Positions 12,010-64,000 of a stretch of DNA of 64,000 nt are shown piece by piece. The stretch is from Pseudomonas sp. B21-056 (GTDB lineage Bacteria; Pseudomonadota; Gammaproteobacteria; Pseudomonadales; Pseudomonadaceae): contig NZ_CP087203.1 of NCBI RefSeq assembly GCF_026016325.1, positions 1,240,001 to 1,304,000 on the forward strand. Direction: 5' to 3'. Below the pieces are notes generated by a model. It saw only the letters and a list, made by a program, of their open reading frames with translations. It had not been told where the DNA came from and did not search any database. How positions within the stretch are numbered: position 1 is the first letter of the stretch; each line of letters starts with the position of its first letter. The translations under genes and the position numbers were made by a program.

Positions 12010-12038
12010 TTGTCCGTCGGAAGCGAGGGCTCTAGCCT
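12010..12038 (+). promoter_or_regulatory. promoter of the first DUF6124 leader
   Basis: TTGTCC (12010-12015) and TAGCCT (12033-12038) are 17 bases apart and would start RNA at about 12045, right before the first leader hairpin. The second DUF6124 locus has TTGTGC-N17-TAGTTT at the same position relative to its hairpin, which supports both calls. Confidence 0.55.
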
Positions 12039-12044
12039 CTGGGT

Positions 12045-12283
12045 GTCGCTGCCAATTCAGCGACCGGACGTGAGAATCCGAACACCCACTATGCGCATAA
12101 GCGCCCGCCATATAAAGTGCAGGCGCGTTTCGTCCATGCTTCGTGTTATGGCGGCTGTGCGCGGGCATGTTTCGACATGGCCGGGTTTTGTGGGTTTGAC
12201 TCGGATTCTCACCCCGCGTACGGCTGCCACTCTCCAGTCCGTGAGAAGACTTTGTGGCAGCTCCAAAACCCAAGGAGCATCAC
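12045..12283 (+). ncRNA. structured 5' leader RNA of DUF6124 gene, copy 1 (candidate translational switch)
   Basis: The leader opens with hairpin TCGCTG/CAGCGA (12046-12063). Strand A1 GTGAGAATCCGA (12070-12081) is perfectly complementary to TCGGATTCTCAC (12201-12212), and ACCCAC (12084-12089) to GTGGGT (12190-12195), closing a large multibranch domain with CCGCCAT/ATGGCGG (12105-12111, 12148-12154) and a UUCG hairpin at about 12164-12182. A second strand, A2, repeats GTGAGAA (12241-12247) and carries AAACCCA (12266-12272), which can pair with the same middle strand (TTCTCAC and TGGGTTT) and touches the ribosome binding site AAGGAG (12272-12277). GGCTGCCAC/GTGGCAGCT (12222-12230, 12254-12262) forms a further hairpin. 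The leader at 58811-59031 keeps all of these elements with different arm sequences. Confidence 0.7.
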
Positions 12284-12643
12284 ATGATCAAAGAAACTCC
12301 AAATCCTCCAAAACCAGCACCCACTTTCCCCTACGGCGATTACGCCCCCGAAAAGCTGCAAGAAGCTGCTGATCGTGCGCTGGATCATTACCTCAAGCCT
12401 GACGACAACGAGTCAGACCCTGAATCCTCTACGCAGTTGTTCATTGTGGCGGACAGTGTCGACACTGAAGTTCTGCTAGCCAACCTCAGCGAAACCCTGG
12501 CCTCGGCCAATGCCATGCTGAGTGACCTGGCTTTCGAGCTGGCCGGCTCGCGGCGGCATGTGGCGTTGGGGGTGGTACAGATGATTGAGTTGGGGGCACT
12601 GTTGGCGGACAAGGCTTTGGACCGGGTAGAGGTTCGGGCCTGA
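12284..12643 (+). CDS. DUF6124 family protein, copy 1
   Basis: This is a 119-residue, probably cytoplasmic protein of a Pseudomonas family of unknown function. It begins with the characteristic MIKETPNPP, followed by a conserved EAADRALDHYLKP and a helical C-terminal half (LLANLSETLASANAMLSDLA, then GSRRHVALGV and MIELGALLADKALDRVE). The ATG follows AAGGAG by six bases. A paralogue with the same layout is encoded at 58457-58810. The gene is single, has its own promoter and a 239-base structured leader, and is followed by a REP cluster. Confidence 0.85.
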   Translation: MIKETPNPPKPAPTFPYGDYAPEKLQEAADRALDHYLKPDDNESDPESSTQLFIVADSVDTEVLLANLSETLASANAMLSDLAFELAGSRRHVALGVVQMIELGALLADKALDRVEVRA

Positions 12644-18664: not shown

Positions 18665-18689
18665 ATGCGCCGCTTTCCGGGGATGACCC

Positions 18690-18807
18690 CGTGAGCTTAA
18701 ATCCACACACGTGTCGACACGATGACCTGGGTGCCTTTGGCTTTATATAGCCGCTGGTTGGTCATTGGGATACGTGGAGGCCAAACCCGACTTATCAAGG
18801 AACTATC
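18690..18807 (+). promoter_or_regulatory. rpsB 5' leader, probable S2 autoregulation site
   Basis: The segment GGGATACGTGGAGGC just before the gene is nearly identical to the leader of Escherichia coli rpsB as I remember it, and the leader contains short palindromes such as CACACACGTGTCGACACG. The rpsB leader is known to bind S2 in enterobacteria and to repress translation of rpsB and tsf. Transfer of that function to this organism is inference from sequence similarity. Confidence 0.6.
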
Positions 18808-53763: not shown

Positions 53764-53770
53764 CAGTCCT

Positions 53771-53900
53771 GTGTCGACGGACAGACACACCCGTCACGGA
53801 CGATGGGGAAGGACATCGCAGGACGCGATTCATCAGGACGATGAAAAGGATCAAAGGGATTAGGGAAAAAATGTGGGCGGGTCAAACCGCCCCTTTTTTT
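53771..53900 (+). ncRNA. rsmZ: regulatory small RNA RsmZ
   Basis: RsmZ titrates the translational repressors RsmA/RsmE and is switched on by GacS/GacA. The 130-base sequence starts TGTCGACGGACAG, contains nine GGA motifs, two of them in ideal hairpin loops (ATCGC-AGGAC-GCGAT and TTCATC-AGGAC-GATGAA), and ends in a terminator (GGGCGGGTCAAACCGCCC plus at least eight T). This and the location between rpoS and fdxA match RsmZ of P. fluorescens/P. protegens as I remember it. It should connect secondary metabolism and exoproduct control to the Gac system. Confidence 0.95.
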
Positions 53901-57248: not shown

Positions 57249-57416
57249 TCAGGCTCGTTTCGCCTCGGCCTGCATCATCACCAGGTTTTGCTGCTTGGTA
57301 GCTTCCGTCAAAACCTCGCTATAAATACGCTTTTTTTGGTCCGATTTTGCATTACGAATAAAATCGGCAAAGGTACTTTTGGTTCCTTTGGACAAGCCTA
57401 GCTTGATCGAAATCAT
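57249..57416 (-). CDS. small protein overlapping the zeta-like toxin gene (candidate antitoxin)
   Basis: This 55-residue basic protein (MISIKLGLSKGTKSTFADFI, then RNAKSDQKKRIYSEVLTEAT, ending AEAKRA) is mostly helical by composition and has no signal peptide. Its ATG overlaps the stop of the zeta-like toxin gene by four bases (ATGA), and a GGAGGG ribosome binding site lies inside the end of that gene, so translation is coupled. Pairing with a toxin, small size and the shared terminator suggest an antitoxin, but I recognise no antitoxin family; this is inference. Confidence 0.65.
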   Translation of the reverse strand: MISIKLGLSKGTKSTFADFIRNAKSDQKKRIYSEVLTEATKQQNLVMMQAEAKRA

Positions 57417-58171
57417 AGGTGCCCTCCTGATGGTGGTTCGAGCATGGCCTCTAGATCGGCCCGCGTATGTTGCTCAGGGATATGGTAGTCAATTTTATCG
57501 ACACCAGCTTTGTAAAGTCGTCCCGAATTGTCGATATGTTTGAGCAGTAGATCCACATGAACGTCACCTTGGTACTCTAGCTTAAGCGCGTTCACTACGT
57601 CACGCGCGGCGAAGTATTGCCTGATGAAATGTTCTTTACGGATCCTCCTACCCTCGGCTGCCTCGCGAGCGTTAACGAATCCCCAAGCGAGCACCGGCGA
57701 TTGATATACATACAAAATCTGTACGAATCGTCCTTTTTTCAAGGAGCGATCTACGTTCCTTCTTGCTACGTCTATGTTGGAAAACGTTCCATCAAGGATG
57801 AAGGACTGCCTTTGATCCAACGCAAGATCCAAAATTTTATCGACCAAAATCGATACAGCGCCTTGAAAAAGCCAGGAATTTGCGCCGGTGTAGGCGGGAA
57901 ATTCGCTTCGTAACTCATCAGCGTCTATGCGCAGGATGGCTGCATCTGCAAATAGATTCACCAGAGCTATCGAGGCCTCGGTTTTACCTGCTCCTGGGGA
58001 ACCTGCCATGAAAACTGATACTGGCGCTTCTTCCGGTGGATAAAGCACCTTATCCGTGAGTCGCTTTGCGATTGCTTTTTTATTGGACCGAGCGAAGCGC
58101 AATGCGTCTTCGCTAATGGCGTGGTCTGCTGGTGCCATTATTTGGCTGCCTGCGTCGGCGTCCTCCGTCAT
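57413..58171 (-). CDS. zeta-toxin-like P-loop kinase
   Basis: The 252-residue protein resembles zeta/PezT toxins, which phosphorylate UDP-N-acetylglucosamine and starve cell-wall synthesis. Visible are the Walker A loop FMAGSPGAGKTEAS near residue 55, the substrate-binding DADELRSEFPAY, FILDGTFSNIDVARRN, and a lid with arginines (AAEGRRIRKEHFIRQYF). AGGAG precedes the ATG at 58171; the frame extends 67 codons upstream through a repeat and is not coding there. GC content is clearly lower than in the neighbours, a sign of transfer. It is the first gene of a two-gene operon. Confidence 0.85.
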   Translation of the reverse strand: MTEDADAGSQIMAPADHAISEDALRFARSNKKAIAKRLTDKVLYPPEEAPVSVFMAGSPGAGKTEASIALVNLFADAAILRIDADELRSEFPAYTGANSWLFQGAVSILVDKILDLALDQRQSFILDGTFSNIDVARRNVDRSLKKGRFVQILYVYQSPVLAWGFVNAREAAEGRRIRKEHFIRQYFAARDVVNALKLEYQGDVHVDLLLKHIDNSGRLYKAGVDKIDYHIPEQHTRADLEAMLEPPSGGHL

Positions 58172-58266
58172 CAACCAACTCCTTCTGATGATTCCTGCTG
58201 TCTGAACCGAGCTAAGCCAGACTACTTTATGCCTAATACTGTCCATTTGAGGAAGTCGACAAAGTG

Positions 58267-58354
58267 GTAGCGAGGGCGATTGCTCCCGTGTGGGTGCGAA
58301 GCCACAGAAAAGGGCTGCTTTGCAGCCCAGCGGGAGCGAGCTCCCTCGCCACAG
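58267..58354. repeat. palindromic repeat of the GGCGAGGGAGC type
   Basis: GTAGCGAGGGCGATTGCTCC at the left and GGGAGCGAGCTCCCTCGCCA at the right enclose AGAAAAGGGCTGCTTTGCAG, making an imperfect inverted repeat between the toxin gene and the second DUF6124 gene. Confidence 0.8.
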
Positions 58355-58456
58355 GTTCATCGTTTTGCTCAAGTGAGCAGTATGGCGACATATAAGTGGC
58401 GTTTTTTGTTTCTGTTCAAATCAAGCCTGTTTCACCTCGGTGTGCATCATGGATGC

Positions 58457-58810
58457 TTACCTCGGCTCAACCACATCCAACGCCCGGTTCGCCAGCAGTT
58501 GGCCCAGTTCGATCATTTGTTGGACCCCTAGCGCGATATGCCGCCGCGAGCCTTCCAGATCGAACGCCAGGTCACTGACCATGGCATTGGCCGAGGCGAG
58601 GGTTTCACTGAGGTTGGCGAGCAGGCATTCGGCATCGATGTTAGGGGCGATGATGAAAAGGGTGTCGAGTGTGTCGGATGTTTCTTTGTCGGTTTGTGGC
58701 TTGAGGTAGTAGTCCAAGGCCCGGGTGGCCGCTTCGTCGAGCGCCTTGGCTGACTGGGAGCGGGAGATATGATCGTCTGTAGATGGGGGATTCGGAGTGT
58801 GCTTAATCAT
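58457..58810 (-). CDS. DUF6124 family protein, copy 2
   Basis: This 117-residue protein shares the layout of the product at 12284-12643: MIKHTPNPP at the start, a conserved EAATRALDYYLKP, and LLANLSETLASANAMVSDLA, then GSRRHIALGVQQMIELGQLL. By eye roughly half of the residues are identical to the other copy, and most of the C-terminal half is. Function is unknown; the protein should be cytoplasmic. It has its own promoter and structured leader. It lies in the accessory region next to mutS rather than with other DUF6124 genes. Confidence 0.85.
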   Translation of the reverse strand: MIKHTPNPPSTDDHISRSQSAKALDEAATRALDYYLKPQTDKETSDTLDTLFIIAPNIDAECLLANLSETLASANAMVSDLAFDLEGSRRHIALGVQQMIELGQLLANRALDVVEPR

Positions 58811-59031
58811 GCTTCTTGGATCCTCGAAGTGGGAGCTACCACCGAGTCGCTACTAAACGAAGAGAGTGGCAACTGTACGCAGGTTAGTAGACCGGGGATC
58901 CAAGAAACCGGCGCACCCGAAGGCGCCCTGCGCACAGCTGCCATTGAATGCAGGATAGGAGTCCTGACTTAATGGAGCGATGTACATCTTGGATACCGAG
59001 CTACTAAACCCGATCACTGATGGGCAGTGAC
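58811..59031 (-). ncRNA. structured 5' leader RNA of DUF6124 gene, copy 2 (candidate translational switch)
   Basis: Read on the minus strand, the leader opens with hairpin TCACTG/CAGTGA (59014-59030), equivalent to the copy-1 hairpin with one compensatory G-C to A-U change. Strand A1 (58987-59008) carries TTAGTAG and ATCCAAGA, complementary to CTACTAA and TCTTGGAT in the middle strand A' (58884-58905). A2 (58813-58857) repeats TTAGTAG and GGATCCAAGAA and can pair with the same A' over part of the ribosome binding site GAGG. Conserved cores GCTGTGCGC (58930-58938) and GCGTACAGT (58872-58880) can pair; AGTTGCCAC/GTGGTAGCT (58866-58874, 58834-58842) matches the copy-1 hairpin with wobble changes. 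A UUCG hairpin occupies the same place as in copy 1. Confidence 0.7.
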
Positions 59032-59038
59032 GAGAACA

Positions 59039-59067
59039 AAACTACCGATTGGATCCAAGGTGCACAA
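59039..59067 (-). promoter_or_regulatory. promoter of the second DUF6124 leader
   Basis: On the minus strand TTGTGC and TAGTTT are separated by 17 bases and end 8 bases before the first leader hairpin, matching TTGTCC-N17-TAGCCT at the other locus. Confidence 0.55.
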
Positions 59068-59204
59068 GCCGGCGGATTCTGGCGTAGTTGTAGGCAGAGG
59101 CGCAAGGCGACGTAGCCTGGTGGCGCATATTTGAAGGACCGGAATCGGGCAGTTTCCCAAGAGGCTGTAGGGGAAATTTCCAACACAACGGGCGCACCGG
59201 ACCC

Positions 59205-59367
59205 TGTGGCGAGGGAGCTTGCTCCCGCTGATGTGCTCCCTGTAGGAACTGCCGAGCGAAGCGAGGCTGCGATCTTTTCCCAGACACTTGAATCCCAAGT
59301 GAAAGATCAAAGGCCCGAGCCTTCATCAGCTTCTACAGAGCCCAGCGGGAGCAAGCTCCCTCGCCAC
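59205..59367. repeat. nested palindromic repeats
   Basis: An outer pair (TGTGGCGAGGGAGCTTGCTC … GGGAGCAAGCTCCCTCGCCA) encloses an inner element of another family (CTGTAGGAACTGCCGAGCGA to CATCAGCTTCTACAG, about 59240-59337). One repeat appears to have inserted into another. The region 59068-59204 upstream holds no gene. Confidence 0.8.
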
Positions 59368-59411
59368 GGGTACAAAAAGAGTCGTTTCATCCTCCATATG
59401 CACGATTTATG

Positions 59412-59425
59412 CAAATCAGCATTTG
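59412..59425. promoter_or_regulatory. candidate autoregulatory operator of the tailocin repressor
   Basis: CAAAT-N4-ATTTG lies 25 bases before the repressor start and shares the GCATTTG core with the repeats at 60290-60322, suggesting binding by the same protein. Confidence 0.45.
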
Positions 59426-59449
59426 TCTTCTGCAAAAAGAACAAGCATC

Positions 59450-60193
59450 ATGCGTGTTATGCAAAAACGCAACGTTTCTACCGTATTAAGAGCATTGCTC
59501 GATCAGCACGGGATCTCCCCCACGGAGCTTCACCGGCGTACCGGCGTGCCTCAATCCACCCTCTCGCGGATCCTCAGCGGCAAGATCGTCGATCCTTCGG
59601 ATAAACACATCTCGAAGATCGCCGAATACTTTGCCGTGAGCACCGACCAGTTGCGCGGGCGCGCCGATGTCGCGCTTGCCGGCAACAGCCGCCGCGACGA
59701 GCCGCATTCCGAACTCAAGGACATAAGCCTGTGGGACGACGATACACCTGTCGAAGAAGACGAGGTGTCGGTCCCTTTTCTGCGTGAGGTTGAATTGGCT
59801 GCTGGATCAGGAAGATTCGTCATCGAGGAAAGCGAGCGCTCCAGCCTGCGCTTTGGCAAGCGCAGCCTGCGTCATAACGGCGTGCAGTTCGACCAGGCCA
59901 AATGCGTGACGGTACGCGGCAACAGCATGTTGCCGGTGCTGCGCGACGGCGCGACGGTTGGGGTGAATGCGGGTAAATGTGGCATTGGCGACATTGTCGA
60001 TGGCGACCTCTACGCCATCAATCACAACGGGCAACTGCGGGTGAAGCAGCTCTATCGCCTGCCTACCGGGATCCGCCTGCGCAGCTTCAACCGCGATGAA
60101 CATCCGGACGAAGACTACAGCTTCCAGGACATGCAGGAAGAACAGATCGTCATCCTCGGTCATGTCTTCTGGTGGGGCATGTACGCCCGCTAA
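59450..60193 (+). CDS. LexA-like tailocin repressor (PrtR type)
   Basis: PrtR-type proteins repress pyocin or tailocin genes until RecA-promoted self-cleavage after DNA damage. The 247-residue protein has a helix-turn-helix (ISPTELHRRTGVPQSTLSRI, residues 22-41) and a C-terminal S24 peptidase domain with the cleavage site Ala118-Gly119 (VELAAGSG), the nucleophile Ser159 in RGNSM and Lys199 in LRVKQL. All catalytic residues are present, so it should be inducible. Of two in-frame ATGs (59450, 59459) neither has a strong ribosome binding site. It precedes a terminator, operators and the tailocin promoter. Confidence 0.88.
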   Translation: MRVMQKRNVSTVLRALLDQHGISPTELHRRTGVPQSTLSRILSGKIVDPSDKHISKIAEYFAVSTDQLRGRADVALAGNSRRDEPHSELKDISLWDDDTPVEEDEVSVPFLREVELAAGSGRFVIEESERSSLRFGKRSLRHNGVQFDQAKCVTVRGNSMLPVLRDGATVGVNAGKCGIGDIVDGDLYAINHNGQLRVKQLYRLPTGIRLRSFNRDEHPDEDYSFQDMQEEQIVILGHVFWWGMYAR

Positions 60194-60210
60194 CCCCTCC
60201 GTTGTCAGAT

Positions 60211-60238
60211 AAAACCCGCCGTCGTGCGGGTTTTTTTT
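60211..60238 (+). terminator. terminator of the repressor gene
   Basis: AACCCGC and GCGGGTT form a 7-pair stem with loop CGTCGT, followed by eight T. It isolates the repressor from the tailocin promoter. Confidence 0.85.
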
Positions 60239-60289
60239 CGCCCCTGAAAAGGGCTGTAACCCCTGTCCCTGCTGGGTGCTAATGCGCTG

Positions 60290-60322
60290 ATGCATTTGCC
60301 GTGCATAAATAAATGCATTTGC
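60290..60322. promoter_or_regulatory. direct repeats ATGCATTTGC, probable repressor operators
   Basis: ATGCATTTGC occurs at 60290-60299 and 60313-60322, 23 bases (about two helix turns) apart, with an inverted pair TGCAT-N6-ATGCA (60302-60317) between. They lie just upstream of the -35 box of the tailocin promoter. Confidence 0.6.
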
Positions 60323-60325
60323 GCA

Positions 60326-60354
60326 TTGACTGTATATGCATACATGCATATTCT
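60326..60354 (+). promoter_or_regulatory. tailocin promoter with overlapping palindromic operator
   Basis: TTGACT (60326-60331) and TATTCT (60349-60354) are exactly 17 bases apart. The spacer and -10 box contain a perfect palindrome, ATATGCAT-AC-ATGCATAT (60334-60351), where a bound repressor would block RNA polymerase. The run to the first gene is about 175 bases. Confidence 0.7.
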
Positions 60355-60529
60355 GTGTCCAAGCCGCTCGACAAAGCCGGCTGGCAACACCGCTCTTTAG
60401 TTCCATCAACAGGCAGCGATGAACCGGCCTCAACGGTTCAGAGGGTTGGCAACTGACCCGGGTGTGCAGCGTAAAGCACCAGAAGCAGTTATCCGGCGGG
60501 CAGGGGCCGCGGCCGGAGGAACAATTTGA
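60355..60529. other. leader between the tailocin promoter and first genes
   Basis: About 175 bases with several short palindromes (for example GAACCGGCCTCAACGGTTC at about 60421-60439) and no gene larger than the small frame that begins at 60530. It ends in the strong ribosome binding site GGAGGA. Confidence 0.5.
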
Positions 60530-60685
60530 ATGGATCCGTACCGCGCCAGTCGCGCCGAAAGATCAAGCGCATTACTGAAAAGCCTGGGCGACCGGGCTTT
60601 TTGGAATGCCTGCGCCGTGAGGCGCTTCAAAACATACCGCCGCCAATGGAGGGCTTTCAATGCTGAAGGATTTCAGATGCGGTAG
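60530..60685 (+). CDS. small basic protein upstream of com, possible leader gene
   Basis: This 51-residue frame (MDPYRASRAERSSALLKSLG … RFKTYRRQWRAFNAEGFQMR) has a very good ribosome binding site, GGAGGA, nine bases before its ATG, and overlaps the com gene by 26 bases in another frame. It is rich in Arg and aromatic residues and matches no family I recognise. The overlap suggests translational coupling with com. It may be a real small protein or only a leader peptide. Confidence 0.5.
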   Translation: MDPYRASRAERSSALLKSLGDRAFWNACAVRRFKTYRRQWRAFNAEGFQMR

Positions 60686-60842
60686 CTGTAAACGACTTCT
60701 GGCCCGCGTGGGCGAGAACGCCGAACTCCAGATCAAGTGTTCCCGATGCGGGACGTTGAATCATGTGAAGGCCGTTGAGCCTCGAGTGATCGCCGTTGAG
60801 CGAACAACGTGCGCAGTAGACCGCACAACCAGTACTCAATGA
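60660..60842 (+). CDS. com: Com-family zinc-finger regulator
   Basis: The 60-residue protein has the four-cysteine zinc finger CGSCKRLLARVGENAELQIK followed by CSRCGTLN, as in Com of phage Mu, which binds mom mRNA and opens its start site. No mom-like DNA modification gene follows here; secreted-protein genes do. The ATG follows GGAGGG. It lies in the presumed tailocin transcript. Confidence 0.8.
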   Translation: MLKDFRCGSCKRLLARVGENAELQIKCSRCGTLNHVKAVEPRVIAVERTTCAVDRTTSTQ

Positions 60843-60863
60843 CATCCGTCGAGGTAACAACAA

Positions 60864-61508
60864 ATGAAACTATCCAAACAGCTTCTACTGGCGATTGCGT
60901 TTCTGTCGTCCTTCGTCTCGCTGAACAGCCGCGCTGATACAGCCATGTCCTGGAACTTGGCCAGGGACATGTACTTGATGACGGAACAGGCTCCGGCCGG
61001 TTCTGCGTGGTCTTTCATGCAGAACAAGACGGCGGTAAACGCTTCGGCCAACTACACGCTTTTTCCGGCGTTCCAAGCAGGCGTTTGCAACGGTAAGCCA
61101 ACCACTTGCTGGCGGGACGATGCCACTGGTGCCTGGATCTCCATTCCGAACGAAAGCTTCACCTTCACCGGCTCGGGCACCAGTTTCGTATTCAAAAAGG
61201 GCGACGTGGCGACGCATCCCGGCACCAACAGCCAGAGCATCTTCCGTTGGGCCAGTCCCGTTACCGGCAACATCAACGTATTGGGACGGGTCAACGACCT
61301 GCATAACGCATGCGGCGATGGTATTGGCTGGTCGCTCAACCTGGGTGACACCGTGCTCCAGTCCGGCAGTTTGGCAAACGGCGGCAGCACCACGTTCATG
61401 TTGAACAGTGTCGCAGTCACGTCGACGTCATCGCTCTATCTGGTCATTGATCGCAAAGCGAATAACTCCTGTGATGCGACCAGTATCGACATGCTCATCA
61501 CTCGTTAA
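60864..61508 (+). CDS. secreted protein of unknown family
   Basis: The 214-residue precursor has a signal peptide (MKLSKQLLLAIAFLSSFVSL, cleavage after NSRA) and a beta-rich mature part with two cysteine pairs possible (VCNGKPTTCW; HNACGDG and NSCDATS). GAGGT precedes the ATG. I recognise no family; repeated Gly, Ser and Thr and a probable sandwich fold are visible. It stands between com and a second secreted protein and the holin gene, an unusual place for a secreted, non-lytic protein. Confidence 0.7.
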   Translation: MKLSKQLLLAIAFLSSFVSLNSRADTAMSWNLARDMYLMTEQAPAGSAWSFMQNKTAVNASANYTLFPAFQAGVCNGKPTTCWRDDATGAWISIPNESFTFTGSGTSFVFKKGDVATHPGTNSQSIFRWASPVTGNINVLGRVNDLHNACGDGIGWSLNLGDTVLQSGSLANGGSTTFMLNSVAVTSTSSLYLVIDRKANNSCDATSIDMLITR

Positions 61509-61559
61509 GAGTGAAGTCCCCGCCGCTCAACCAGAACATTAAATCTTAAGGTACCTATT

Positions 61560-62141
61560 ATGAATCTCATCAAAAGAACCCTGTCCTCCTCCCTTCTGGC
61601 GTTCGCTCTTTTCAGCGCCGCAAGCAACGCCACCGCGGCGAACTTACTGATCAACGGCAGCTTCGAACAGCCAGGTTGCGCTGACAGTTGTGTATTGGAT
61701 ACACCGCAGAAGACCAACTTCATCACCGGTTGGACGACTTTTCTGTCAGGCGCGGAGTACTTCAACCCGGCCGCTTCGATCCGAGGGGCTGCGGCAGCTG
61801 ACGGCAATGTCATTGTCGATCTGGCGAACTCCATCTATGGCAACGGCGGCGGGATTCAGCAGAACTTTGCGACGGATGTCGGCGCTAAATATCGATTGAC
61901 CTTCAGTGCCGGTAACTCGGCGTATGCCAATCGTTCCGGAGAAGGAGTCGTCCAGGTGAAAGTTGCCGGGCAGACCGCCACTTTCAACACGCCGGCCGCT
62001 CACTCCCAGGCATTTACATGGGGCACTTTCACTTACGAGTTCACGGCGACTACGGCCCTGACGACCCTGGCGTTCTCGAACGAGCAGAACCCCTATGTCA
62101 ACTTTGCCTTTATCGACAACGTCATTGTTGAGCGTCTGTAA
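61560..62141 (+). CDS. secreted DUF642-like protein
   Basis: The 193-residue precursor has a signal peptide (MNLIKRTLSSSLLAFALFSA, ending NATA) and a galactose-binding-like fold recognisable from NLLINGSFEQPG, GWTTFLSGAEYFNP and GGIQQNFATDVGAKYRLTFS, which resemble DUF642 and PEP-CTERM-associated proteins. Such domains bind carbohydrate in other families. A TTAAGG motif lies before the ATG. It may be cargo carried by the tailocin island. Assignment is by motif resemblance only. Confidence 0.6.
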   Translation: MNLIKRTLSSSLLAFALFSAASNATAANLLINGSFEQPGCADSCVLDTPQKTNFITGWTTFLSGAEYFNPAASIRGAAAADGNVIVDLANSIYGNGGGIQQNFATDVGAKYRLTFSAGNSAYANRSGEGVVQVKVAGQTATFNTPAAHSQAFTWGTFTYEFTATTALTTLAFSNEQNPYVNFAFIDNVIVERL

Positions 62142-62229
62142 ACGTCGCCAGGCTTCAAAGCAAATCCTCTCTGCCGGACGTGAGGTCTTGAATCCCGTCC
62201 CCCCATCATCAATCACCCAGGAGGCGTGA

Positions 62230-62580
62230 ATGACAAACGAGCAACAAGCGTTGCTGGACATGCCGATCTGGCTGGTCATCCTGCTCGCCCTGGTGGGCGG
62301 GGTGTCCGGCGAGATGTGGCGTGCCGACAAGGAAGGCGCCCGAGGCTGGTCGCTGTTGCGGCGCCTGGCCTTGCGCTCCGGCGCCTGCGTGATCTGCGGT
62401 GTCTCGGCAATCATGCTGCTGTATGCCCTCGGCATGTCGATCTGGAGTGCTTGCGCCCTGGGTTGCCTGACCGCCATGGCCGGTGCCGATGTGGCCATCG
62501 GTCTCTACGAACGCTGGGTCGCCAAGCGGATTGGCGTTTGTGAAGTGCCACCGGCGGACTCCCGTCCCGACCAGCAGTGA
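62230..62580 (+). CDS. phage/tailocin holin
   Basis: The 116-residue protein has three hydrophobic stretches (WLVILLALVGGVSGEMW, ACVICGVSAIMLLYALGM, IWSACALGCLTAMAGADVAI) and a charged C-terminal end, matching the holin that opens R-type pyocin clusters in Pseudomonas. It would release the endolysin or tailocin by permeabilising the inner membrane. AGGAGG precedes the ATG. It starts the structural-gene block that runs off the right edge. Confidence 0.85.
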   Translation: MTNEQQALLDMPIWLVILLALVGGVSGEMWRADKEGARGWSLLRRLALRSGACVICGVSAIMLLYALGMSIWSACALGCLTAMAGADVAIGLYERWVAKRIGVCEVPPADSRPDQQ

Positions 62581-62616
62581 GCCGGTGCCGCCGTTCCACA
62601 GGAAAGAGGCCATCCA

Positions 62617-63129
62617 ATGCCCACTCTCATCGAAAAACCCTCGCAGCTGTTTACCGCCATTGCCGAGACGCTGCGTACCACCTTTCCCGGCTTGAAGGTC
62701 GGGAGTCTCCAGGAATTTGACGACACCGGCGATCAGCCTTGGGCATTGATCTCTATCGAACGTGATACGTCAGGGAACCGTGCCAACGATGGGCGTATCG
62801 CTCATGTCCTGACGTTTTCCATGCTAGTCGTTTCGCCCGGCATGGGGTTGACGGCCTGCGATCTGGCCTGTGAGTTGAAACGCCTGATCGTCGACAACCG
62901 CTGGGATCTGTCGGCTGAGCAATGCAGCCGGCCCACGGATATCGAGGGCACTGCGTCCGTGTTCAGCGGCGGGACACGGCCGTACAGCGCCTGGACCGTT
63001 TCATTCACCCAGACCCTGTACCTCGGTCCGACGCTGCTGGAGGACCCGCTGGGCATCCCGAAATTCGCCCGGACCTGGGAAGTGTCGAACATCGACGACC
63101 CGGACCAATACACCGCACTCGAGGGCTGA
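62617..63129 (+). CDS. tailocin protein of unknown function, R-pyocin PA0615-like position
   Basis: This 170-residue soluble protein begins MPTLIEKPSQLFTAIAETLR and contains FSMLVVSPGMGLTACDLACE; its length and location between the holin and the baseplate V protein correspond to the hypothetical gene at the same place in R-pyocin clusters. It could be a tail terminator or tail-assembly protein, but no motif proves this. GGAAAGAGG lies before the start. Confidence 0.7.
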   Translation: MPTLIEKPSQLFTAIAETLRTTFPGLKVGSLQEFDDTGDQPWALISIERDTSGNRANDGRIAHVLTFSMLVVSPGMGLTACDLACELKRLIVDNRWDLSAEQCSRPTDIEGTASVFSGGTRPYSAWTVSFTQTLYLGPTLLEDPLGIPKFARTWEVSNIDDPDQYTALEG

Positions 63130-63132
63130 ACC

Positions 63133-63744
63133 ATGTTCGATGCGCTTCTACGCTTGCATCTGGGGCCGATCATCGAGCGCCTGGCCGGGATGGAAACCGA
63201 GTTCGAAGACTTGCACCGACGCGCAGACGGTGTCTGTCGCATCGGCGTCTGCCAGGAAGTCGATGCGGCCAGCAACACCTGCAAGGTTGCCCATGGAGAG
63301 CTGCTGACCCCGGCGATCCGCTTTTTCAACCCGAGTGCCGGCGCCCAGAGCGAGTCGCGGATTCCCTCCGTGGGCGAGCAATGCCTGCTGCTGAACCATG
63401 GCGGCGGTGATGGCAGCGGGCAGTCGGTGGCCTTGTTCGGCCTCAACGGTGGTCAGTTTCCTCCCGTCTCGACACAGGCAACGCTGACCCGTCGCCTTTA
63501 CCCGGACGGTTCGGAAAGCGGCTACGACCACGCCAGTCATGTCCTGCACTGGAAAAACGGTCCGGCGACATTCACCGGTTCCCGTGAATCCCTCGAATTG
63601 ACCATCGGCCCGTCGCGGCTGGCGATGACACCTGAGGCCATCGACCTGCAACTGGGTGCCGTCGGCATCCGGCTCGACGCTTCCGGTGTGCACCTGAGCG
63701 GCCCGTTGGTGGATCACCAGGGGCGTGTCATCAGCACTGCGTAA
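63133..63744 (+). CDS. baseplate assembly protein V (spike)
   Basis: The 203-residue protein corresponds to gpV of P2-like phages, the membrane-piercing spike of contractile tails. An OB-like domain spans the first 110 residues (VCRIGVCQEVDAASNTCKVA, GEQCLLLNHGGGDGSG), and the C-terminal part is beta-helical with the short repeats ESLELTIGPSRLAMTPEAI and DLQLGAVGIRLDASGVHLSG. It starts three bases after the preceding gene. Confidence 0.88.
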   Translation: MFDALLRLHLGPIIERLAGMETEFEDLHRRADGVCRIGVCQEVDAASNTCKVAHGELLTPAIRFFNPSAGAQSESRIPSVGEQCLLLNHGGGDGSGQSVALFGLNGGQFPPVSTQATLTRRLYPDGSESGYDHASHVLHWKNGPATFTGSRESLELTIGPSRLAMTPEAIDLQLGAVGIRLDASGVHLSGPLVDHQGRVISTA

Positions 63745-63767
63745 AGCACTGCATAAAGAGCTTCCCC

Positions 63768-64000
63768 ATGATTGGAATCGATAGAAACACCGGCGCCACG
63801 GTGGATGACTGGCCACAGTTCGTCCAGCGCGCCACCCGGGCGCTCACCACACCCTTGGGCACCCGCCAGAAACGCCCGTTATATGGCTGCGCACTCACCC
63901 AGTTGCTGGGGCAGAACCTCGGCGATGACCTGCTGATTCTTGCCCAGAGCCATGCAGCCCAAGCCTTCTACAACCCCCACAACGGCATCGGCGACTTCGA
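63768..64000 (+). CDS. baseplate protein W (GPW/gp25), N-terminal part
   Basis: The frame is open to the window edge and encodes MIGIDRNTGATVDDWPQFVQ followed by ALTTPLGTRQKRPLYGCAL, the start of GPW/gp25-family baseplate proteins. Order V then W is that of P2 phages and R-pyocins, so the tailocin continues to the right. Confidence 0.88.
   Translation, partial: MIGIDRNTGATVDDWPQFVQRATRALTTPLGTRQKRPLYGCALTQLLGQNLGDDLLILAQSHAAQAFYNPHNGIGDF

Follow-up and report, generated by a model that had tools for sequence, protein, structure and literature searches.

Many C4 antisense RNA cassettes with self-matching arms in a Pseudomonas chromosome, among them the leader of a DUF6124 gene with two predicted folds

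C4 is a textbook phage antisense RNA, whose founding papers are said to be those of Citron and Schuster (1990, 1992) and Hartmann (1995). For chromosomal C4 copies we know of no targets to date; the supplement of Weinberg (2010; PMC2864571) may describe C4 targets. In phages P1 and P7, whose C4 and target sites are represented by the Rfam models RF01695 and RF03163, C4 is processed by RNase P to about 77 nt, as cited in a section of PMC5320573, and the phage P1 record AF234172 carries a1 (TTGACAG), b1 (GTTAGTGC), a C4 of 77 nt, a2 (TTGACAG) and b2 (GTTAGTGA), then icd and ant. Many C4-like RNAs in a single genome have a precedent in Acinetobacter baumannii: the 'Group 1' sRNAs of strain AB5075 (21 RNAs named, 15 full-length ones analysed) are chromosomal, vary in a' and display RNA-seq read patterns resembling C4 processing at GGW, and action on incoming phages and on paralogous mRNAs is proposed for them in PMC5320573. 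To us, the 'Region 1' hairpin of these sRNAs looks like an a1 hairpin. The section of PMC5320573 on these sRNAs names no downstream genes, whereas each C4 described here is tied to its own sites and a small gene. The IsrK-orf45-anrP leader of Gifsy-1 is alike in that two exchanging structures set downstream translation, and different in that IsrK is an activator in trans with other pairing partners and that no C4 is named in the sections of PMC4825925 cited here. In Burkholderia cenocepacia, C4 and isrK are presented as one transcription unit in a part of PMC4603805, and in our material the isrK model (RF01394) matched the a1b1 part weakly in some copies, with 52.3 bits in L004 (cut-off 50) and 34.4 bits in copy 1 of the window.

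The window is a stretch of 64,000 nucleotides from Pseudomonas sp. B21-056 (contig NZ_CP087203.1, positions 1,240,001 to 1,304,000), and an Rfam scan of it yielded five matches at gathering thresholds, three of which bear on C4 leaders. An RsmZ-type sRNA (53770-53900, plus strand, 134.2 bits) and a t44 RNA (18686-18786, plus strand, 69.6 bits) were also detected. On the minus strand, a C4 antisense RNA at 58862-58948 scored 79.6 bits against a gathering score of 45, with the whole model covered. We conclude that 58811-59067 is very probably a C4 antisense RNA cassette whose C4, cut out by RNase P, most likely blocks translation of its own locus. The features of this leader, copy 2 of the window, are as follows.

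59062..59067, minus strand: -35-like TTGTGC of a putative sigma-70 promoter
59039..59044, minus strand: -10-like TAGTTT of the putative promoter, with a 17-nt spacer to the -35
59014..59030, minus strand: opening hairpin of the c4-a1b1 element, TCACTG/CAGTGA
59001..59008, minus strand: a1 target site TTTAGTAG, complementary to a'
58987..58994, minus strand: b1 target site ATCCAAGA, complementary to b'
58862..58948, minus strand: C4 antisense RNA (RF01695, 79.6 bits)
58930..58942, minus strand: C4 stem P1, 5' strand GGCAGCTGTGCGC
58910..58927, minus strand: C4 stem-loop P2 with UUCG
58896..58906, minus strand: b' TTCTTGGATCC, in the loop of P3, from complementarity
58884..58890, minus strand: a' CTACTAA, from complementarity
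58868..58880, minus strand: C4 stem P1, 3' strand
58866..58873, minus strand: 5' strand of the alternative helix, overlapping the base of stem P1, from covariation
58850..58857, minus strand: a2 target site TTTAGTAG, complementary to a'
58835..58842, minus strand: 3' strand of the alternative helix, after a2, from covariation
58821..58825, minus strand: Shine-Dalgarno-like GAGGA
58813..58823, minus strand: b2 target site GGATCCAAGAA, overlapping GAGGA, 11 nt complementary to b'
58457..58810, minus strand: DUF6124 protein gene, 117 aa, start codon at 58810 (PF19619, 113.1 bits)

Contiguous pairing with the arms of C4 extended over 7 nt at a1, 8 nt at b1, 7 nt at a2 and 11 nt at b2, and the overlap of b2 with GAGGA, ahead of the start at 58810, places b2 at the ribosome binding site, as in phage P1. 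The c4-a1b1 model (RF03163) matched 58993-59044 with 34.8 bits (E 3.7e-07), which is below its gathering score of 46.7, and TTGTGC or TTGTGT recurred at the -35 position in many copies of the same genome. With the same models phage P1 scored 68.8 bits (C4) and 51.0 bits (a1b1), and the likeness to it comprises the covariance-model structure, the order a1-b1-C4-a2-b2-gene, the spacing class, a' between P3 and the 3' strand of stem P1, and b' in the P3 loop. In contrast to the immI operon of the P1 type, in which C4 is followed by icd and the antirepressor gene, DUF6124 alone follows here; the arms are also different, and up to tens of copies are chromosomal. The target gene, the copy number and the two predicted folds described below set the C4 cassettes of the window apart from the C4 of phage P1.

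Directly downstream of the DUF6124 gene lies a zeta-toxin family ORF (57413-58372, minus strand; PF06414, 136.6 bits). Right beside the leader, at 59423-64000 on the plus strand, start a CI-like repressor, a holin and other phage-type genes, which we take to be probably a tailocin cluster. The cassette is flanked on both sides (about 59190-59390 and 58300-58360) by short GTGGCGAGGGAGC..GCTCCC repeats, which resemble the REP-type repeats of Pseudomonas. The phage-type region resembles the prtR-linked prophage region of EU982300.

A sequence-only reading of the window had assigned the same order of elements to the leaders at 58811-59031 (minus strand) and 12045-12283 (plus strand), and every element that it named was found in place. 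The features of the latter leader, copy 1 (12046-12283), are given below.

12032..12084, plus strand: c4-a1b1 element (RF03163, 56 bits, over the 46.7 cut-off)
12070..12078, plus strand: a1, from complementarity
12084..12089, plus strand: b1, 6 nt only, from complementarity
12144..12234, plus strand: C4 antisense RNA (RF01695, 58.9 bits, cut-off 45, whole model)
12185..12199, plus strand: b' loop, from complementarity
12204..12212, plus strand: a', from complementarity
12223..12230, plus strand: 5' strand of the alternative helix
12241..12247, plus strand: a2, from complementarity
12254..12261, plus strand: 3' strand of the alternative helix
12264..12271, plus strand: b2, from complementarity
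12284..12643, plus strand: DUF6124 protein gene, 119 aa (PF19619, 101.9 bits, scanned from 12266)

In both copies a' and b' are complementary to sites upstream (a1, b1) and downstream (a2, b2) of C4. The arms of copy 1 (GTGAGAATC with GATTCTCAC; CAAAACCC) differ from those of copy 2, and its contiguous pairing covered 9 nt at a1, 6 nt at b1, 7 nt at a2 and 8 nt at b2. The strands that the earlier reading had called A1, A' and A2 pair alike in two leaders with unrelated arm words, as it had stated, and they correspond to the C4 sites a1/b1, b'/a' and a2/b2. Its description of two independent sequences holds for the arms only: both copies precede DUF6124 genes and are paralogues, so they are not two independent inventions. 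Its list of elements was correct but lacked the P3 hairpin with the b' loop and the helix that the 3' end of C4 forms with the strand downstream of a2; it recognised a functional architecture and missed the identity of the C4 antisense RNA.

Membership of the C4 family is given by the covariance model, the site order and the complementarity; a coordinated change of three strands and many paralogues with matching arms were also observed. For the Pseudomonas copies we infer RNase P processing, trans action and repression by analogy with phage P1. The putative promoter just upstream would give one transcript carrying a1/b1, C4, a2/b2 and the DUF6124 gene, from which a cut by RNase P at the base of the C4 stem would release C4 as an RNA some 80 nt long, whose a' would then pair in trans with a2 and whose b' would pair with b2. 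Lying between the Shine-Dalgarno site and the start codon, b2 would on pairing with C4 be closed to translation of the locus's own protein, and pairing of C4 with a1/b1 would add autoregulation. Because the leader belongs to the C4 antisense RNA family, the most likely role of its middle strand is to act in trans once released as an RNA, beyond being a part of a cis leader.

The coordinated change was observed in EU982300 (P. fluorescens Q8r1-96), the one record for which neighbouring genes were compared, where the DUF6124 gene adjoins prtR as in the window. Its a1 and a2 both read TTTAGTCG and its a' CGACTAA, versus TTTAGTAG and CTACTAA in the window; all three A strands share one base substitution (TTAGTAG to TTAGTCG), and the b' loop is unchanged. 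Arms that changed in other genomes without keeping complementarity would have spoken against the earlier reading, and in Q8r1-96 the three strands changed together with pairing kept. Among close DUF6124 relatives, a1, a' and a2 agreed at 7 nt in 20 of 20 aligned leaders (of 22, with L106 and L109 left out), which carried four words (TTAGTCG, TTAGTAG, TTAGCAG and TTCGCAG) and which are mutually related and hence do not represent independent events.

Within the genome of the window (6.45 Mb, one contig), the covariance model gave 32 C4 matches, all above the cut-off, with 14 distinct a' words and 31 distinct b' loops. At least 6 nt of contiguous Watson-Crick complement to a' were present at a1 in 32/32 and at a2 in 30/32 of these cassettes, compared with 28/908 and 54/908 for pairs with different arms; for b', the corresponding counts were 22/32 at b1 and 26/32 at b2, against 98/990 and 147/990. 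The b1 site was weak in several copies, with fewer than 6 nt contiguous in 10/32. Arm pairing exceeded chance for each of the four combinations of arm and site, the self sum being equalled in 0 of 10,000 re-pairings, and in 30 of 32 rows no other target matched better than the cassette's own. Since the arms differ among paralogous cassettes, each C4 would mainly recognise its own mRNA; cassettes with a common a' word (up to 6) may cross-react, and L001 and L009 have both arms in common.

A stricter test required a single word, 6 nt or longer, to be present in both the a1 and the a2 region and to have its complement in C4. It was passed by 29/32 own cassettes, the three failing being truncated copies, by 38/40 cassettes from other genomes (failures L139 and L158) and by phage P1, the other genomes being 14 of the family, 13 from other genera and one from the same genus. 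When C4 and targets were taken from different cassettes, 85/992 own and 235/1,560 other-genome combinations passed, and with the C4 zone shuffled 46/1,600 and 53/2,000 did. At DUF6124 loci found by protein similarity the test was passed by 40/41 in viral contigs (failure L208) and by 73/74 in named genomes (failure L278; 5 of 79 were left out, their match not starting at residue 1), with swapped controls of 450/1,640 and 1,029/5,402, which are high because few a words are common in these sets.

The 3' end of C4 (consensus AGCTGCCACC, that is, the 3' strand of stem P1 and the unpaired end) can also pair with the strand after a2 (GGTGGCGGCT), and this helix occupies the base of stem P1, the reported place of the RNase P cut. 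In 70 cassettes (29 own, with three truncated ones dropped, 40 from other genomes, and phage P1), 615 of 699 cells of the helix held standard pairs, against 25-60% with the partner slid by 1 to 3, and 44 cells had changed on both sides, against 3-12 when slid, in columns picked from the consensus, a choice that benefits the unslid register. None of 500 shuffles reached the paired-cell or the both-side-change value, and the best 9-bp helix had at least 8 pairs in 57/69 cassettes versus 97/1,380 with a shuffled downstream strand, although the kinship of the cassettes means that shuffle tests, like the rank test below, overstate independence. Phage P1 is alike here as well, with 8 of 9 pairs. From these sequence comparisons, a helix that covaries appears to compete with the base of C4.

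Thermodynamic folding of C4 alone gave the Rfam cloverleaf in both window copies (-45.8 kcal/mol for copy 2). For the whole leader, the predicted lowest-energy fold of both copies was an alternative one, in which a1/b1 pairs with b'/a', the competing helix forms with a2 in its loop, and b2 and the start are largely free. Across the 70 cassettes the lowest fold was the alternative in 35, C4 in 28 (including phage P1) and neither in 7; with the upstream 118 nt from another cassette (n = 280), it was C4 in 206, the alternative in 43 and neither in 31. Upstream pairing involved 8 nt or more of the a'/b' zone in 28 of the 35 alternative folds and fewer than 8 nt in 7. The energy gap between the two folds (alternative minus C4) had a median of +1.0 kcal/mol in own leaders (48/70 within 6) and of +5.5 kcal/mol in swapped ones (rank test, P = 3.6e-08, samples not independent), and was +1.8 kcal/mol in phage P1. 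The leaders are thus predicted to balance the C4 fold against one with a'/b' often taken up in cis by a1/b1, and, going by these energies, a leader might switch between the roles of mRNA and antisense RNA. We tentatively suggest a bistable C4 leader, in which, as long as it is uncut, a1/b1 would act as a cis anti-antisense that takes a'/b' and the strand after a2 would take the C4 3' end, one molecule choosing to be mRNA or antisense RNA; the cassettes might then form a large set of mutually selective switches before small proteins in Pseudomonas chromosomes and prophages.

The same folds bear on the strongest alternative, a possible but doubtful one, that the leader is chiefly a two-state RNA in cis: ON when a1/b1 takes b'/a' and the C4 3' strand is bound by the strand after a2, so that the ribosome site stays open, and OFF when C4 folds and is cut out, the released C4 being a by-product or a second layer. 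It draws on the alternative being the lowest whole-leader fold of both window copies, on its frequency with own as compared with foreign upstream parts (35/70 versus 43/280), on the lower median energy gap of own leaders and on the covariation of the competing helix. The folds, however, are thermodynamic predictions, and folding during transcription may favour C4; another fold is the lowest in half of the cassettes, 7 of the 35 alternatives pair fewer than 8 nt upstream, and kinship and consensus-chosen columns inflate the tests as stated above. We favour repression of the own locus by a released C4, against which count the weak b1 of several copies, the below-threshold c4-a1b1 match of copy 2, the seven C4 matches lacking a DUF6124 match downstream and the cross-reaction that shared a' words may allow. 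Between b1 and C4, a terminator-like hairpin with a T-run was found in 28/40 other-genome cassettes (e.g. L130, L144-L148, L160, L162-L165), in phage P1 (L171) and in 12/32 own cassettes, against 190/1,460 (13%) in a shuffled control, and in neither window copy; in cassettes having one, it could make a1/b1 an attenuator.

The genome holds 32 DUF6124 matches, 29 of them above the cut-off, and a DUF6124 match closely follows 25 of the 32 C4 matches in the same orientation. Among the 25, three (430321, 5251692 and 3683725) are truncated, with C4 fused to the 3' portion of the gene, and in one (5589161) the protein is just under the DUF6124 cut-off and also matches DUF3077. The remaining seven C4s are without DUF6124 downstream, so C4 pairing is not tied to one gene family: DUF3077 follows at 351483 (122.8 bits), ORFs of 92-97 aa with no Pfam match at 5965186, 3734224, 1762668 and 3550500, and a 40-aa ORF at 1104762, and no ORF was found downstream at 3199145. 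Conversely, four of five full-length DUF6124 genes lacking an upstream C4 carry c4-a1b1 above the cut-off and are possible targets without an antisense RNA of their own. These four loci (L065, L066, L067 and L068) lie near 600.8, 536.4, 5141.6 and 1672.8 kb. Another DUF6124 gene, L064, has neither C4 nor a1b1 and is close to a PrrF sRNA.

Such C4-less genes would suit a chief action of chromosomal C4s on other RNAs, be it those of incoming phages with C4-like sites or paralogous mRNAs, which we consider unlikely. The a-sites of L065 and L066 match 7 nt of a' from the C4 at 5251692, which has a truncated gene of its own, cassettes occur in viral contigs as well, and both roles are proposed for Acinetobacter in PMC5320573. 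Against this, the own leader is the best target of nearly every C4 (30/32), and at their b-sites the four C4-less genes offer short matches. That the cassettes are a dispersed repeat without a regulatory role, with arms complementary just from recent copying, is hardly credible: 32 copies in one genome, several of them decayed, would suit it, but the arms differ and three-strand complementarity is kept within and across genomes, which already contradicts it, and in intact copies an open frame follows at a constant distance. The same kept complementarity strongly supports the claim of the sequence-only reading that a shared architecture with exchangeable arms is functional.

Beyond this genome, C4 was found in 41 of 59 sampled Pseudomonadaceae genomes, representing 17 of the 19 genera, and as many as 36 times in one genome; DUF6124 occurred in 3/59, all three of the window's genus, and DUF3077 in 10/59. 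Several unrelated kinds of small ORF follow the 40 C4 loci of other genomes (L130-L169). Among those scanned, seven of about 110-170 aa matched the antirepressor-like Bro-N domain (PF02498), five above the cut-off and two just under, and the one also compared with PHROGs matched anti-repressor Ant families; two were DUF3077, and ORFs of about 55, 90 and 94 aa had no Pfam match. In IMG/VR, 41 loci encode DUF6124 relatives, with C4 in 19 of 20 scanned. On three viral contigs (L195, L202 and L206), the C4-DUF6124 cassette stands between tail-fibre genes and the tail sheath gene, which is the position of an added (moron) gene. As to the function of DUF6124, no match was obtained in PADLOC, NCBIfam or PHROGs, and the best match to PDB sequences (E 0.096) is not meaningful. 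In a literature search that covered mostly open-access papers, DUF6124/DUF3077 turned up in one paper, on furfural tolerance, and no literature joining either with C4 was found.

Collectively, the analysis links each C4 copy with target sites of its own and with a small protein family, and the competing helix would explain the retention of a1/b1. About 30 putative natural RNA repressors with different arms in one cell offer material on how antisense specificity evolves, and the C4 cassettes provide a handle on the roles of DUF6124, DUF3077 and similar proteins.
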